This document shows, piece by piece, positions 25,850 to 37,672 of a stretch of 41,126 bases of DNA (position 1 is its first letter; each line of letters opens with the position of its first letter). Origin of the DNA: Actinomycetes bacterium (GTDB lineage Bacteria; Actinomycetota; Actinomycetes; Actinomycetales; Cellulomonadaceae); contig JAJYSG010000017.1 of NCBI GenBank assembly GCA_021793675.1, positions 1-41,126 on the forward strand, read 5' to 3'. The notes under the pieces are model-generated. The model searched no databases, was not told the DNA's origin, and saw only the letters and a list, made by a program, of their open reading frames with translations. The position numbers and the translations under genes were made by a program.

Positions 25850-27124
25850 TCAGGCACCGAGGAGCGCGGCCGGGATCACAGCGATCCCGTCGGGCCGTCG
25901 GTAGGCGGCCGGCCCGGTGGTGATCACCGCAGCATCGAGCAGGTCTTCGCCGACCCGCTCCTTGAGCCACCTGAGATGCCGGGTGTCCTCGTCCGTCGGA
26001 ACCGGAGCGAGCTTGACCTCGAGTGCCACGAACCGCCCGTCGTCGCGGGTGACCACCAGGTCGACCTCGTGGTCGCCCCCTCTCGTGCGCAGGTGACTGA
26101 CCCGTGCACCGACCACGGCTGCGTAGACCTGGACCGACAGCGTCACCAGCCCCTCGAAGAGTGCGCCGAGCAGTGTGCCGTCGCGCGGGATGAGCGGGCC
26201 GTCCGGGCTCGGAGAGCTGACCAGCGCCGCCGCGTTCACGCCGAGGAGCCGAGCGGCGAGGGCAGGGTCGGCGAGGTGATGCTTGGGGGCCTGGCCCAGG
26301 GAGGCGATCGGCGACCTCGACCCCGTCCACGCGGGCACCTCGTCGAGCAGCCAGAGTCGCTCGAGGGTGTCGCGGTAGCCGATCGTCGTCGTCTTGGCCG
26401 GCTTGCCGCTCTGGCCGGCCGTCGCGGCATCCATGATCGAGTTGTAGGACGCGGTCGTGGCGGTCGCCGCCGCGTACGCCGTGAGCCACCGGCGGAGGGT
26501 CGCGGGACGGCGCACCACATGACCGAGCTCGGGAAAGTCCCTGTCGACGATCGCCTCCACGTAGCCGCCGAGGGCATCGGGACGCACGTCGTCGTCGAGT
26601 GCCCGCAGGCCCGGCATGCCGCTGCGCACGACCTCGTCTGCGTAGGTGCGCAGGTTCACCGGGCTCGCCCCGGCGACGGTCGGCCTGGTGCCCCGGAGCA
26701 GGTCCGCGAGCGAGACGGTCGGCTCGACGAGGGCGCGCTCGGCGAGCGACATGGGGCGCATCCGTACCCGCACGATCCGGCCGGCCCCGGTGTGGGTCGG
26801 TGCGGACGTCGGCGCCGCAGAACCCGTGAGCAGGAAGGACCCCGGGGGGGCACCGTTGTCGACGGCGCGCCGGACCTGGTCCCAGACCGCCGGGTACAGC
26901 TGCCACTCGTCGACCAGCACCGGCCGGTCCGCGGTGGTGAGTCGCTCGCGGTCGGCTTGGAGCAGGTCCCGCTCGAGGGGGTCGTCGAGGGCCAGGACGG
27001 TTGCGGCACGCCGCGTCGCGGTCACCGTCTTGCCGACGGCCTTCGGCCCGTCGATCACGACCGCCGGCAGGCCCGCGAGCAGTCGGTCCAGCTGCCGGTC
27101 AAGGAGCCGTGGGCTGTAGGGCAC
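25850..27124 (-). CDS. DUF4143 AAA+ ATPase, copy 1 (intact)
   Basis: A 424-residue AAA_14-DUF4143 protein. The P-loop is DGPKAVGKT (residues 25-33), Walker B is PVLVDEW (69-74), sensor 1 is LLTGSAAP, and the family motif RVRMRPMSLAER follows. The C-terminal DUF4143 domain shows a PD-(D/E)xK-like array: Asp355 in HEVDLVV and Glu369-x-Lys371 in ALEVKL. Family members are of unproven function; nuclease-like or regulatory roles are inferred. GTG 27124 is the first base of a predicted leaderless mRNA whose -10 is formed by the first of four 23-bp-spaced repeats. Two relatives lie at 34.9-37.3 kb. Confidence 0.9.
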   Translation of the reverse strand: MPYSPRLLDRQLDRLLAGLPAVVIDGPKAVGKTVTATRRAATVLALDDPLERDLLQADRERLTTADRPVLVDEWQLYPAVWDQVRRAVDNGAPPGSFLLTGSAAPTSAPTHTGAGRIVRVRMRPMSLAERALVEPTVSLADLLRGTRPTVAGASPVNLRTYADEVVRSGMPGLRALDDDVRPDALGGYVEAIVDRDFPELGHVVRRPATLRRWLTAYAAATATTASYNSIMDAATAGQSGKPAKTTTIGYRDTLERLWLLDEVPAWTGSRSPIASLGQAPKHHLADPALAARLLGVNAAALVSSPSPDGPLIPRDGTLLGALFEGLVTLSVQVYAAVVGARVSHLRTRGGDHEVDLVVTRDDGRFVALEVKLAPVPTDEDTRHLRWLKERVGEDLLDAAVITTGPAAYRRPDGIAVIPAALLGA

Positions 27125-27130
27125 AACTGG

Positions 27131-27208
27131 AGGCTACCGCTTGGGGTGTCCAAACGCTACCGTTTTGCTCTCTCACGGGCTACCGTTCTGTCGGCCTGAA
27201 CGCTACCG
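27131..27208 (-). repeat. 23-bp-periodic array (four GCTACCG repeats) in the DUF4143 promoter
   Basis: GCTACCG occurs at 27133-27139, 27156-27162, 27179-27185 and 27202-27208, exactly 23 bases apart each time; the following T at the ninth position is also kept. Read on the gene's strand the repeat is CGGTAGC. The first copy plus two bases forms TAGCCT (27131-27136), the -10, and the second overlaps the -35 region. An operator array or iteron-like site for a cooperative DNA-binding protein is inferred. Confidence 0.8.
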
Positions 27209-27292
27209 ATCGAGGACGCGACCCGGGCCGCACCGGCGGGCGGTGTGACGGCGCCGGGCCGCCGGGGTAGCCAGACCAGCGGCAGGCGGACG

Positions 27293-29968
27293 TCAGGACG
27301 CCCGGCGGGTGCAGATGAGGTGGGCCACCAGCGACGTCCAACCCGTCTGGTGCGAGGCGCCGAGCCCCTCGCCGGTGTCGCCGTGGAAGTACTCGCTGAA
27401 CGTCGGGTGCGCGTTCCACAACGGGTGGTCGGGATGGTCGTGCGGCTGGCTGGGTCGCCGGCCGCCGGGACCCGGCCGGAACAGTCCGACGAGCCGTTCC
27501 GACAGCTCGTCGGCGGCCTGCGACAGGTTCACCCGGTGACCCGACCCCGTCGGCACCTCGACCTGGAGCTCGTCGCCGACCCCCTGCGCGTAGGTGCGCA
27601 TCGCCTCCACCAGCAGCACGTTGACCGGCAGCCAGACCGGTCCGCGCCAGTTGGAGTTGCCGCCGAACAGCTCGGAGTCCGATTCACCCGGCGCATACCG
27701 GATCGCCAGCGCCTGCCCGCCCACCTGCACCGTCGTCGAGTCGCGGTACGCGGCGGACAGCGAGCGGACCCCGTACGGGGAGAGCAGCTCGCCGGTGTCC
27801 AGGGCGCGTTGCAGCACGCGGACGTACCGCGCCGGCGGCACGAGCGCCAGGCCGCCCCGGTGGCCCGGCTCGGGATGGACGACGACCCTGCGCTGCAGCA
27901 GGTCCTGGCGGTGCTCCTCGAGCCAGTCCCGGCGCTGGACGTAGGACTCCAGCTGGTCGACCCAGTCCGGGGTCACCGCGACCGCGAGCAGCGGGACCAG
28001 CCCGACGTACGACCGGACGCGGATCGGCTCGGCGCCGCCCTGGTCGTCGACCAGCAGGTCGTAGTAGAAGCCGTCCGCCTCGTCCCACAGGCTGGTCCCC
28101 GCCGAGCCGAAGGCCTCGCTGGCCTCGGCGATCGCGAGGAAACGCTCGAGGAACGTGGTCGGCAGCTCGCTCCAGCCGGGGTCGTGCCGGGCCAGCTCCT
28201 GCGCGATGCGCAGCATCGCGAGGAACGCGAACGCCACCCAGCTGGTGGCGTCGGACTGCTCCAGGTGGTGGCCGGCGGGCACGTCGCGGGACCGGTCGAA
28301 CACCGAGATGTTGTCCATCCCCAGGAACCCGCCGCCGAACAGGTCGGTGCCGTGCTCGTCCTTGACGTTGGTCCACCAGCCCATGTTGAGCAGCAGCTTG
28401 CTGGCCATCCGGGCCAGGAACGCCTGGTCGCGCGAGCCGTCGATGACGTACACCAACCAGGTGGCCCACGCGTGCACCGGCGGGTTCACGTCCGAGAACG
28501 ACCACTCGTACGCGGGGAGCTGACCGGACGGGTGCTGGGCCCACTCCCGGCACAGCAGCAGCAGCTGCTCCTTGGCGAGCGTGGGATCCACGTGCGCCAA
28601 CGTGACGGCGTGGAACGCGAGGTCCCAGGCGGCGAACCAGGGGTACTCCCACTCGTCGGGCATCGAGATCACGTCGGCGAGCTCGAGGTGCGGCCAGTCG
28701 GTGTTGCGCCCGGCCGGCTCCGGGGCGCGGCGCTGCGGCGGGGCCGGCGGCTGGCTCGGGTCGCCCTCCAGCCACTCGCCGACCGCGTACCGGTAGACCT
28801 GCTTGCCCCACAGCAGCCCGGCGAACGCCCGCCGTGCCGTGAGCGCGTCGTCCGGGGAGGCGGACGCCGGGACCACGCCCGCGTAGAAGGTGTCCGCCTC
28901 GGCCCTGCGTGCGGCCAGCACCGCGTCGTACGCGTCACCGAACGGCGGGTCGTCGTGCGCCGCCGCCCGCAGCCGGAGCGTCACCGTCACCGACTCCCCG
29001 GGCCCGACGGCGGCGAAGCGGTAGTCGAGCGCGACCTTGGTGCCGCGGTTCTCGGGGTTGGTCGCGCCCGGGTCGCCGTGCACGATCGCGGCGTCGATCC
29101 CGTTCGTCGGGTAGCGGGACGCGTTGTGGTCCGCCCCGAACAGCCCCACCGCGTCGGTCTCGTTGTCGCAGAACAGCACCCGCGGGTGACCGGCCGCGTC
29201 CAGGCGGTAGTCGCCGAGGAAGTCGTGGTGGCCGTCGACGCGCACGCCCGCGGGGTCGTCGGCCAGCGCGAGCGTGGGCCGACGGTCGTCGCGGCCCCAG
29301 GCCCAGGTGTTGCGGAACCAGAGCTGCGGCACGAGGTGCAGCGGGGCGGGGTCGGGCCCGCAGTTCCGTGCGGTGACGGTCAGCAGGACGTCGTCGGGGG
29401 CCGCCTTCGCGTGGGTGATCGTCACGTCGAAGAACCGGTTCTCGGCGAGCACCCCGGTGTCCGCCAGCTCGTACTCCCGGTCGCCGCGACCGCGCCGCGC
29501 GTTCTCGGCGACGAGCTGCGCGTAGGGGAAGGCCGCCTGCGGGTAGCGGTAGAGCAGCCGGCCCCACGAGTGGGTGGGGGTGGCGTCGAGCGGCCACCAG
29601 TACTCCTTGACGTCCTCGCCGTGGTTGCCCTGGCTGTTCGTCAGCCCGAACCAGCGCTCCTTGAGCCGGTCGTCCCGCTCGTTCCACAGCGCCACCGACA
29701 GGTGCAGGAACCCGTGCGCGTCGCACAGGCCCGCGATGCCGTCCTCGCCCCAGCGGTACGCGCGGGCGTGCGCCTGGTCGAACGGCAGGTAGGCCCACGC
29801 GTCGCCGTCGTCGGAGTAGTCCTCCCGGACCGTGCCCCACTGGCGGCCCGACTGGTAGGGGCCCCAGAGCCGCCACGGCGCGTCCGCCGGCAGGTCGGCG
29901 ACCCGTGCCCCCTCGGCGCCGCGACGGTCGGAGGCGGCCGACCTACCATGGGCTTCGTCAGTGGCGAT
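27293..29968 (-). CDS. GH63-like glucosidase (MGH1-like domain), apparent AUC start
   Basis: A protein of about 891 residues resembling large bacterial 'glucosidase' proteins of the GH63 clan. Near the N-terminus are RLWGPYQSGRQWGTVREDYS and AYRWGEDGIAGL, then ERWFGLTNSQGNHGEDVKEY. Near the end are GGNSNWRGPVWLPVN and GEGLGASHQTGW. The conserved N-terminal block lies upstream of the first standard start (GTG 29695). No ATG, GTG or TTG occurs in frame before it. The codon ATC at 29966-29968 has GGGAG six bases upstream and is taken as the start. If GTG 29695 were used, about 91 residues of conserved sequence would be lost. No signal peptide is visible, so the enzyme is probably cytosolic, acting on alpha-glucosides or trehalose-like sugars (inference). 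Confidence 0.85.
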   Translation of the reverse strand: MATDEAHGRSAASDRRGAEGARVADLPADAPWRLWGPYQSGRQWGTVREDYSDDGDAWAYLPFDQAHARAYRWGEDGIAGLCDAHGFLHLSVALWNERDDRLKERWFGLTNSQGNHGEDVKEYWWPLDATPTHSWGRLLYRYPQAAFPYAQLVAENARRGRGDREYELADTGVLAENRFFDVTITHAKAAPDDVLLTVTARNCGPDPAPLHLVPQLWFRNTWAWGRDDRRPTLALADDPAGVRVDGHHDFLGDYRLDAAGHPRVLFCDNETDAVGLFGADHNASRYPTNGIDAAIVHGDPGATNPENRGTKVALDYRFAAVGPGESVTVTLRLRAAAHDDPPFGDAYDAVLAARRAEADTFYAGVVPASASPDDALTARRAFAGLLWGKQVYRYAVGEWLEGDPSQPPAPPQRRAPEPAGRNTDWPHLELADVISMPDEWEYPWFAAWDLAFHAVTLAHVDPTLAKEQLLLLCREWAQHPSGQLPAYEWSFSDVNPPVHAWATWLVYVIDGSRDQAFLARMASKLLLNMGWWTNVKDEHGTDLFGGGFLGMDNISVFDRSRDVPAGHHLEQSDATSWVAFAFLAMLRIAQELARHDPGWSELPTTFLERFLAIAEASEAFGSAGTSLWDEADGFYYDLLVDDQGGAEPIRVRSYVGLVPLLAVAVTPDWVDQLESYVQRRDWLEEHRQDLLQRRVVVHPEPGHRGGLALVPPARYVRVLQRALDTGELLSPYGVRSLSAAYRDSTTVQVGGQALAIRYAPGESDSELFGGNSNWRGPVWLPVNVLLVEAMRTYAQGVGDELQVEVPTGSGHRVNLSQAADELSERLVGLFRPGPGGRRPSQPHDHPDHPLWNAHPTFSEYFHGDTGEGLGASHQTGWTSLVAHLICTRRAS

Positions 29969-30100
29969 GGCCTGCTCCCTGCTCGGCGGGACGATGGTCC
30001 CAGCGTAGGCGGCTCCCCTGAGGAGCCACCGGAGCGAGGCCGCCTCTCCCGGCGAGGTCGACGTCCGAGGGCTGCGGAAGACACGCGAAGGGAACGGGAC

Positions 30101-34965: not shown

Positions 34966-36207
34966 TCAGGGACCAAGGTTCAGGATCGAGGTGACGAAGA
35001 CGCCGTCCGCTCGGCGGTAGGAAGGCCCGGTGGCCGTCACGACGGCAAGTGCGGACGGCGGAGTTCGCATCCGCTCGGCGAGCCGAACGAGGCTCGACGC
35101 AGCCCCCTCGATGATCTCCGGGCGGCCGGAGAGCTTGACCTCGACCCCCATCCAGCGATCGTCGCGGACGACGACCGCGTCGAACTCGGCAGTGGTGTCC
35201 TGGTAGGCGAACACGCGAGCGTCGATGGCCTGGGCGTAGACGGACAGGTCACGGAACACGAGGCTCTCGAACAGCTGCCCGAACGTCTCGGGGTCGGCCA
35301 CCAATGCCTCGGGGCTGGCGCCCATCGCCGCCGCGGCCAGGGACGGGTCGACGAGGTGCCGCTTGGGGGCCCGCCGCACCTGCGCCGAGGACCGCATGTG
35401 CTGCCCCCACGCCGGCTGCTCGACGTAGAGCCACAGTCGTGCGAGGGCGTCCAGGTAGTTGTCCAGGGTCCGCGGCGCGAGGTTCTGCCCGTCACCGGTG
35501 ATGTCCGCCTGGAGCGTCCGGTTGGTCACGTAGGTTCCGGCGTTGCGCGCGAGCGCGAAGATCAGCGCGGTGACCTTGCGCGGGTCCCGGCGGACGCCGT
35601 CGAGCGTGACGATGTCGGCGCCGGCGATCGTCGCCAGGTAGTCACGGTTGGCGTTGAGCGCATCGCCGAGGTCGCGCCCGAGGTTCCCCGGCCAACCTCC
35701 TCGGCAGAGCAGGCTGGCCACGCCAAGCAGGTCGATGTCGCTGCCCGCACTGGTGGCGGGCTCGCCGTCGAGCAGCGCCCGCAGCGACACCTGGCCATTC
35801 GACTGCTGCTGCTCGAACAGCGACATCGGCATCATCCGGACACGGGAGAACCGGCCCGCGCCGGTGTGCCGTGTGACGTCATCCGTGGGGGTCGCGGACC
35901 CCGTGAGGATGAACTGTCCGCTGGCTTGTCGCTCGTCGACCGAATGACGCACGGCGTTCCAGACCTCAGGAACCAGCTGCCACTCGTCGATCAGCCGGGG
36001 CGTCTCCCCCGCGAGCAGCACGCCGGGGTCGACCTGGCCGGCTGCGCGAAGCTGTGGCGACGCATCGAGGCGGACGAGGCTGGCGGCCTGCTGGCGTGCC
36101 GTGGTCGTCTTGCCGCACGCCTTCGGACCTTCAAGCACGACGGCACCCGCGGAGCGAAGGCCTCGGGCGAGCTGGTCGTCCACCAGCCTCGGGAGGTAGG
36201 TAGCCAT
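34966..36207 (-). CDS. DUF4143 AAA+ ATPase, copy 2 (intact)
   Basis: A 413-residue paralogue. The P-loop is EGPKACGKTTTA (about residues 26-34), Walker B is PRLIDEW, sensor 1 is ILTGSATP, and RVRMMPMSLFE is the family motif. DUF4143 has AEFDAVVV and VEVKL in place of the PD-(D/E)xK-like residues. It is clearly more divergent from copies 1 and 3 than they are from each other. The start MATYLPRLVDDQLARGL at ATG 36207 has GAGG five bases upstream and a TATTAT -10, so unlike the others it seems to have a short leader and no 23-bp array. Confidence 0.9.
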   Translation of the reverse strand: MATYLPRLVDDQLARGLRSAGAVVLEGPKACGKTTTARQQAASLVRLDASPQLRAAGQVDPGVLLAGETPRLIDEWQLVPEVWNAVRHSVDERQASGQFILTGSATPTDDVTRHTGAGRFSRVRMMPMSLFEQQQSNGQVSLRALLDGEPATSAGSDIDLLGVASLLCRGGWPGNLGRDLGDALNANRDYLATIAGADIVTLDGVRRDPRKVTALIFALARNAGTYVTNRTLQADITGDGQNLAPRTLDNYLDALARLWLYVEQPAWGQHMRSSAQVRRAPKRHLVDPSLAAAAMGASPEALVADPETFGQLFESLVFRDLSVYAQAIDARVFAYQDTTAEFDAVVVRDDRWMGVEVKLSGRPEIIEGAASSLVRLAERMRTPPSALAVVTATGPSYRRADGVFVTSILNLGP

Positions 36208-36317: not shown

Positions 36318-37339
36318 CTACGGCCCCAGCAGCGCGAGCGGGATGACTGCGACGCCGTCCGGGCGGCGGTACGCGTGCGACCCGGTCGTGAGGACCACCA
36401 TGTCGACCAGCCGCTCGCCGAGCCGCTCCTTCAGCCAGATCAGGTGCCGCACGTCGTGCGCGCTGGGTAGTTCGGCCAGCTTCACCTCGAACGCCACAGC
36501 CAGTCCGTCGTGGCCCTCGACGAGGAAGTCGACCTCACGATCGCCGGTCTTGGTGCGCAGGTGCGCCACCGTTGCCTCCGCGGCCTGGGCGAACACGCGC
36601 AGCTCGAGTGCTGCGGGGGATTCGAAGAGCGCACCGAGCAGGGTGCCGTCCCGGGGGATCGCCACGTCCCCTTCCCCGCCGGCGAGAAGCTTGGCGGGGG
36701 TGACATCGAGCAGCGTCACAGCAAGGGCTGGATCGGCGAGGTACCACTTCGGCGACGTGGTCAGCCTGTTCAGCCGCGACATCGTCGGCACGTGGCCCGG
36801 CAGCGGGTCAGCGATCCAGATGCGCTCCAGCACGTCGCGGTACGTCTGCACCGTGGTGCGTGCGGGGGGCGTCCCGTCGCCGGCGGCGTCGCGGATCTTC
36901 TCCATCGTCGTGGTCGTTCCGGTCGCGCCGGCGTAGGCCGTCATCCAGCGCCGGAGGCCCCGCGGGTTGCGTACCTCGTGACCGGCCTCGTCAAAGTCTC
37001 GGTCGACGATGCGGGCCACGTAGCCGGCCAGCTGGCTGCGCTGGACCCGTGGGGAGGGGACCGGGGGCCGGGGAAACCACCGGTGACGATCTCGTCCGTG
37101 TAGTCACGAAGTCCGACCTACGTCTCACCCTCGATCTCCGCCGCGCCTTCGAGGAGTCGCCCGAGCGACACGGTCGGTCGCTCCACCCCACGTTCGACCA
37201 GCGTCATCGGACGCATGCGCACGGTGACAATGCGACCGGCGCCCGAGTGCGTCTGAGGCGCGTGCGGCGAGGCGGAGCCGGTGAGCAGAAACCTGCCGGG
37301 GCTGGAGCGCTCATCCACGGCCCGGCTGCGCCAGGTCAC
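36318..37339 (-). pseudogene. DUF4143 ATPase, copy 3: truncated, nonsense and frameshift
   Basis: The sequence is closest to copy 1. Residues aligned to copy 1 begin only after its Walker B: VDERSSPGRFLLTGSASP, then RMRPMTLVERGVERPTVSL. The P-loop and Walker B (about 83 residues) are absent. An in-frame TAG at 37118-37120 interrupts GET/VGLRDYTDEIV. Within G/C runs at about 37047-37078 the frame then shifts, and the remainder continues GYVARIVDRDFDEAGHE to the normal end VAVIPLALLGP. DUF4143 keeps REVDFLV and FEVKL. A GTG at 37339 under a TAGCGT -10 remains in place, so the promoter survived the N-terminal deletion. Confidence 0.85.
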
Positions 37340-37345
37340 GCCACC

Positions 37346-37406
37346 ACGCTACAAATCGTCGGGTCGGAATGCTCCACATCGTCACCCTCCTGGGCTGCAG
37401 ATCGTC
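37346..37406 (-). repeat. 23-bp-periodic array (three repeats) at the promoter of DUF4143 copy 3
   Basis: GCTACAAATCGTC (37348-37360), GCTCCACATCGTC (37371-37383) and GCTGCAGATCGTC (37394-37406) are spaced exactly 23 bases apart and share ten of thirteen positions. The first plus two bases forms TAGCGT (37346-37351), the -10. The repeat edge lies nine bases from the GTG, as in copy 1. Confidence 0.75.
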
Positions 37407-37672
37407 ACGCCTGGTTCGACGTTCTCTCTGCGCGTGCGAACTGCCACGACCGTCGCCGCCGGACCACAGCTCCCGACAGGAACGAGCGCCTCCCCGACGT
37501 CAGCGTCGGCCCAGGTGCGGGATCACTCGAGCCGGGCGTAGCAAGTCCTCCAGGTCGGTCCGCCGTCGCGCCGCCGGAATGCCGAACAGCTGCCCCCAGC
37601 AACGGCACATGACTCACCACTCACGAGACCGGAGGCGACAGCAGGCTGCGCGTTGACGGTGAGTCGCCGTGC
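37407..37672. other. Non-coding stretch before the HNH gene
   Basis: I see no supported gene here. Base composition drops slightly toward 37650, where TTGACG (37653-37658) and GAAGCT (37673-37678) form a possible short-spaced promoter for the endonuclease gene. Confidence 0.3.

Follow-up and report, generated by a model that had tools for sequence, protein, structure and literature searches.

PDC-S01, a candidate phage-defence gene encoding an ATPase fused to a PD-(D/E)XK domain, has been ranked fourth in frequency among defences across prokaryotes, with 29,494 bacterial and 9,986 archaeal detections (PMC12988326), and no other individual locus is counted more often in rumen genomes (PMC13356809). 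In Thermus, the DUF4143 gene TT_P0211 was up 6.6-fold with plasmid in a strain with Argonaute, so that at least one DUF4143 gene is inducible (PMC4406477). A phage-defence island has been reported to be repressed cooperatively by RptR via three direct repeats over the -10 (PMC12255303). The passages of PMC12988326 on PDC-S01 make no mention of promoter arrays, operators or DNA-reading residues, arrays of the present kind are likewise unmentioned in the relevant passages of PMC12255303, PMC4406477 and PMC13356809, and a search of the open-access literature by title and abstract returned nothing relevant joining repeats, promoters and such ATPases. We describe here a spaced repeat array upstream of a DUF4143 gene in a 41,126-nt stretch of actinobacterial DNA (the window), and compare it with the upstream regions of its relatives.

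The array and the protein encoded beside it

The gene and its array are laid out as follows.

25850..27124, minus strand: DUF4143/AAA_14 ATPase gene, 424 aa, GTG start, probably leaderless, PADLOC PDC-S01 (Pfam, PADLOC)
27131..27222, minus strand: putative four-unit 23-bp operator array (sequence; score unmatched in shuffles)
27200-27222, 27177-27199, 27154-27176, 27131-27153, minus strand: array units in transcription order
27131..27136, minus strand: -10 hexamer TAGCCT within the promoter-proximal unit (sequence; TANNNT in the last unit of relatives)

As the original prediction held, GCTACCG (CGGTAGC on the gene strand) starts at 27133, 27156, 27179 and 27202 of the plus strand, in steps of exactly 23, 23 and 23 bp, and the arrangement is non-random: the period-23 stack score of 15.3 was reached in 0 of 2000 shuffles with periods 15-35 scanned, and no other 7-mer in the 41-kb window has four equally spaced copies at spacings of 10-60 bp. 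The word alone is not enriched (7 copies found versus 4.3 expected, with at least 7 in 17 of 100 shuffles), so the spacing is the signal. The TAGCCT on the minus strand, proposed from the outset as a -10 six bases before the start codon, has its end exactly 6 nt upstream of the GTG at 27124. The accompanying proposal that the sites occupy one face of the DNA is wrong, since at about 10.5 bp per helical turn 23 bp amounts to 2.19 turns and successive sites rotate by about 69 degrees. Within the window's own genome, which is 62% complete and therefore allows a partial regulon check, the spaced GCTACCG pair occurs only in the window array, as three overlapping matches. The upstream neighbour of the gene (27293-30082, minus strand) encodes a glycoside hydrolase with MGH1-like/GH63 domains.

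The encoded protein exceeds the curated Pfam cut-offs for DUF4143 (82.2 bits versus 28.1) and AAA_14 (48.1 versus 27), and by sequence the gene matches PDC-S01, a very common candidate defence gene, over residues 3-422 of 424 (E 1.2e-71). NCBIfam and PHROGs assign the protein to no family, and a sequence search of the PDB with it gave one chance-level match (E 0.44). Its domains map to the window as follows.

26738..27064, minus strand: AAA ATPase domain, residues 21-129 (Pfam AAA_14; model pLDDT 93)
26339..26512, minus strand: presumed winged-helix region, residues about 205-262, with recognition helix 244-256 (model secondary structure, fold match)
26012..26062, minus strand: PD-(D/E)XK catalytic stretch, D355...E369-V-K371 (invariant columns; fold matches of the C-terminal domain)

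The winged-helix label is our own assignment and should be read as presumptive. D355, E369 and K371 are invariant among 70 aligned sequences, and the catalytic Asp and Glu-X-Lys sit on the core fold in the structural model, which places the protein in the PD-(D/E)XK superfamily as a predicted nuclease.

Spacing, repeat word and promoter placement among relatives

The 80 loci nearest by protein were compared by self-match at increasing lags, 79 of them having 150 upstream bases and one being too short. The self-match rate was 0.421 at lag 23 and 0.365 at its harmonic, lag 46, while the remaining lags between 5 and 60 gave 0.24-0.29; the best lag between 10 and 60 was 23 or 46 in 72 of the 79, and far-upstream and coding controls had no peak at lag 23. 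A wider set was then assembled by dropping genes whose model match starts beyond position 30 and removing 24 of the remaining 221 for having fewer than 100 upstream bases or being identical over the first 200 residues. In these 197 distinct DUF4143/AAA_14 loci, with arrays called by a likelihood score tested over periods 15-35 against the 99% shuffle level, the period was 23 in 153, 22 in 8, 24 in 3 and 31 in 1, and 32 had no array above that level. The window's subfamily carries a period-23 array in 91 of 99 loci and none significant in the other 8, and the pattern fades below about 100 bits to the subfamily model, where 5 of 14 loci have period 22 or 23. A 22-bp step was found at L109, L114, L228 and L291, in Chlorobiaceae, Myxococcales and Actinomycetota genomes and a Rhizobium plasmid.

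The arrays extend to plasmids, where 177 records hold a relative. Eight were examined: the period is 23 in the loci of Prosthecochloris, Actinomyces oris, Lentilactobacillus, Collinsella and two Bacteroides, 22 in that of Rhizobium, and weakly 22 in that of Thermus (score 10.4 versus a 99% level of 9.6). PDC-S01 models match all five plasmid-borne relatives scanned. The DUF4143 gene adjoins cas3u in the Actinomyces oris plasmid locus (L286) and a Y-family DNA polymerase or dinB gene in the Prosthecochloris (L285) and Rhizobium (L291) loci.

The period is conserved across the family and the repeat word is not. Six subfamily paralogues in one genome carry five words: those of L131, L133, L134 and L139 differ from one another and from that of L104 and L130 (= L011), whose consensus sequences are identical at every position called in both, so that the words are not fully private. 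Of the expectation that homologues would carry the same repeats upstream, the general part stands, as most have spaced repeats with spacing stricter than sequence; the literal recipe of GCTACCG at 23-bp steps fails, since the word changes from locus to locus.

The unit was described from the subfamily loci that reach an array score of 9, which leaves aside 7 of the 99. Over the remaining 92, the gene-strand consensus is CCGCGAAATGGTAGCGTA followed by about 5 loose bases, a conserved unit longer than the 7-mer GCTACCG, and arrays comprise 2 units in 6 loci, 3 in 56, 4 in 26 and 5 in 4. The window's units score 8.8, 6.2, 10.3 and 5.6 versus a median best unit of 10.7 in these loci, and the left half of the conserved unit is degenerate there. 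TANNNT is present in 80 of 92 last units versus 119 of 212 others. In the 73 loci used for geometry it lies in the last unit in 64, and the nearest in-frame start codon follows it by 6-8 nt in 47, as expected if the message is leaderless. The -10 position across the window's subfamily thus backs the promoter placement put forward originally, and the array has the layout expected of an autoregulatory multi-site operator, with repeated sites overlapping the gene's own predicted promoter.

This placement bears on whether bound protein would block or recruit RNA polymerase. Autoactivation, in which protein on the array recruits the polymerase, appears distinctly unlikely to us: a -10-like hexamer within the last unit in those 64 of 73 loci suits occlusion, although at both Bacteroides plasmid loci a likely -7 promoter element follows the end of the array, an arrangement that equally suits activation. 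We give the least credence of all to a row of tandem -10 elements without a dedicated binder. Units do contain TANNNT, and 23 bp is the start-to-start distance of -35 and -10 elements with a 17-bp spacer; against this, just over half of the non-terminal units keep TANNNT, the CGAAAY half of the unit lies outside it, the L088 and L114 arrays have units that lack it, and the bases track protein residues, as described below.

The array is confined to the promoter site within the sequence searched. At 75% of the maximum score, the 240 bp upstream of the genes contain 228 motif matches, every one on the gene strand, and there are none in the gene, downstream or far upstream on either strand (408,518 positions; flanks of at most 2.5 kb per side). 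The spaced pair GTAGYGT-N16-GTAGYGT has eight matches in four genomes (5, 2, 1 and 0), with none for a reversed-pattern control, and all eight are upstream arrays of DUF4143 genes, by letters or by place. A host regulon was rejected on this distribution, none of the pairs in the four genomes lying away from a DUF4143 gene. Arrays of the Tn7 type, which would stand at both ends of an element, were likewise set aside, with no matches outside the upstream 240 bp in flanks of up to 2.5 kb per side. The same absence of a second array makes it highly improbable that the repeats are transposase-type binding sites at the end of a mobile element, even though AAA+ and PD-(D/E)XK parts together with 22-23-bp repeats resemble Tn7, and paralogues are numerous in some genomes.

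Viral sequences were searched with a triple-repeat pattern, which returned eight stretches, several of them plain tandem duplications with the spacer included and none with a DUF4143-like ORF; the idea of phage decoys was set aside after this search. PF13635 is absent from the five whole viral records searched (a set outside which L293, L294 and L296 fall), and none of 36 stretches matching peptide patterns proved a viral homologue by alignment. At L298 (13027-13079, plus strand) and L299 (5518-5570, plus strand), three 23-bp units score like real ones (8.5, 10.3, 10.3). These related contigs share 97.8% identity over 5,572 bases, ending two bases past the array, neither record has a DUF4143 match, and they count as a single coincidence because the units are copies of one 23-mer. 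A further viral contig, L300 (3708-3760, minus strand), carries three GTAGCGT at 23-bp steps, with no DUF4143 match in the record.

Covariation of repeat bases with protein residues

Mutual information between repeat and protein columns of the window's subfamily singled out residues 348-351 and 243-245, which correspond to two short segments of the window protein.

26390..26398, minus strand: reader 1, residues 243-245 (A-K-T), co-varying with repeat columns 9, 13 and 14
26069..26083, minus strand: reader 2, loop residues 348-352 (R-G-G-D-H), of which 348, 349 and 351 co-vary with columns 1, 3, 4 and 5

The first mutual-information table contained artefact scores from nearly invariant columns, and a tree-based rerun was restricted to columns with at least 8 minority residues, using a phylogenetic null in which each repeat column was simulated 100 times on a protein tree built without the reader regions. 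After this correction z was 12.9 for column 9 with residue 244, 12.2 for 4 with 348, 8.8 for 13 with 245, 7.9 for 3 with 349, 7.7 for 3 with 348, 7.3 for 14 with 245 and 5.8 for 1 with 351, relative to a 95% per-column maximum of 4.5-4.8 for the reader-linked columns. Three other strong pairs do not fit this reading and weigh against it, namely column 20 with residue 54 (z 7.7), 11 with 235 (7.4) and 3 with 277 (6.4); column 20 is a spacer base and residue 54 lies in the ATPase domain, a pairing that may reflect chance, mis-registration or a third contact.

The underlying associations are simple (repeat columns with less than 60% agreement being omitted cell by cell). His348 accompanies C3 in 19 of 19 loci, G4 in 20 of 20 and A5 in 17 of 18; C4 accompanies Arg348 in 18 of 20 and Lys348 in 9 of 10; Lys244 goes with G9 (44/52), Arg244 with T9 (17/21) and Arg351 with G1 (18/20). 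Eight such rules were applied to a held-out set, in which 42 new loci were reduced to 30 with less than 90% identity to known loci or to each other, 27 of them with a usable array; registration relied on the other columns, and one-sided Fisher p values are uncorrected and not tree-corrected. Six of the eight were significant:

Lys244-G9, 15/16 versus 0/8
Arg244-T9, 6/8 versus 0/16
Arg/Lys348-C4, 13/14 versus 2/12
Asn/Asp349-G3, 10/12 versus 3/14
Thr/Ser245-G13, 14/14 versus 9/13
His348-G4, 2/2 versus 3/24

The other two, His348-C3 (2/2 versus 5/24, p 0.065) and Arg351-G1 (4/6 versus 4/18, p 0.069), were not. Of the six paralogues that share a genome, five obey the residue-244 rule and L131 breaks it.

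When 6-residue windows were scanned across the subfamily without guidance, those at 240, 243 and 348 came out top, and 1 of 300 random window pairs equalled the readers. With distant clades pooled, the readers did not stand out in a partial Mantel test, being equalled by 89 of 300 random windows; there residue 348 ranks third of 8073 pairs, yet weakly (z 4.3). As read from these alignments, the residue-to-base code is established for one subfamily only.

Two arrays in the window can be compared with the code. By our reading of the units, the array of the intact gene follows the Lys244 rule (G9) in 4 of 4 units and the Arg348-C4 rule in only 2 of 4, so that the left half of this array is weak. 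The second array belongs to a broken paralogue.

36324..37324, minus strand: broken DUF4143 paralogue (matches in two frames, one internal stop)
37320..37411, minus strand: second four-unit 23-bp array, with a different word, directly upstream of the broken paralogue

Among the matches listed for this paralogue none covers the first 83 model positions, and it carries Arg244 and Lys348 versus Lys244 and Arg348 in the intact protein. The code accordingly predicts T9 and C4 for the second array, where, as we read the units, T9 is found in 3 of 4 and C4 in 4 of 4. A third, more distant DUF4143 gene (34987-36198, minus strand; 279 bits) lies directly downstream of the broken paralogue, and a scan of the stretch before it gave no significant period-23 array.

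Direct reading of the repeats by the gene's own product offers the simplest account of both the covariation and the differing words. As the repeat letters follow residues of the gene's own protein in the best-sampled branch, the protein probably controls its own gene, and the early suggestion that the ATPase itself could be the binder gains backing from the covariation, the held-out prediction and the differing paralogue words. Dedicated small regulators do often bind spaced operators, RptR being an example (PMC12255303). We nonetheless hold it very unlikely that a separate host regulator binds these repeats, given five words among six paralogues of one genome and bases that follow residues of the adjacent gene's own product.

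Readings of the array and comparison with described systems

These data favour a model, which we consider likely, in which the ATPase-nuclease recognises the array of its own gene as a private operator and most likely acts as an autorepressor. Each asymmetric unit would be read by two spots of the protein: its GGTAGC half by the first residues of the winged-helix recognition helix, and its CCGCGA half by the loop that immediately precedes the catalytic Asp355. Several protomers would line up head to tail, occupying between 2 and 5 units, in most cases 3. The placement of the array over the -10 suggests repression: as the last unit holds the -10 box, the bound protein would occlude the promoter and keep expression low. 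The model envisages direct and cooperative binding, repression over activation, and derepression on infection or loss of the protein. The turn of about 69 degrees per protomer is near the step of an AAA+ spiral, a matter of geometry and not evidence. The intact catalytic triad is not needed for a mere repressor, exceeds what one would require, and counts against the operator reading.

The triad and the position of the second reader have a place in two other readings. The array could be a DNA-encoded nuclease lock, a possibility that we rate as unlikely though worth stating, in which the enzyme is parked on its own site with its active-site loop clamped on specific bases. Parking would silence the gene and keep the nuclease idle, and events such as phage take-over or locus loss, by stripping the enzyme from the DNA, would release it and lift the silencing at once. 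If true, the operator would be the antitoxin of a single-gene defence system, and the code would stop most paralogues from cross-silencing one another. Rather more doubtful is an assembly platform or parking site with transcriptional control as a side effect or absent, whose chances are not exclusive of those of the operator. One reader being the loop beside the nuclease active site, the invariance of catalytic residues beyond an operator's needs and the fit that head-to-tail direct repeats would offer a spiral AAA+ assembly all speak for it; the fixing of the array to the promoter, with the -10 commoner in the last unit than in others, would be needless for assembly.

The residue-to-base code predicts what each protein of the subfamily would bind, the covariation singles out a loop next to the nuclease active site as a candidate DNA reader, and short synthetic DNA would make binding, regulation and activation testable.

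The two halves of the protein have separate structural counterparts. Residues 1-295 and 1-294 match the folds of the archaeal AAA+ ATPases 2qen (PABY2304) and 2fna (SSO1545), respectively, a match that excludes the C-terminal nuclease-like domain; the latter has fold matches among PD-(D/E)XK proteins, namely the McrBC nuclease subunit, an archaeal repair endonuclease, Can2 and restriction enzymes. In its combination of an ATPase with a PD-(D/E)XK domain the window protein is like PDC-S01 as described (PMC12988326). In promoter layout it is comparable to the RptR system, where direct repeats likewise lie across the -10 upstream of a defence gene. RptR, however, is a small dedicated repressor with 9-bp repeats and a palindromic 6-bp site (PMC12255303), whereas here the units are asymmetric, recur at 22-24-bp steps and change their word from gene to gene, and the presumed binder is the ATPase-nuclease itself.
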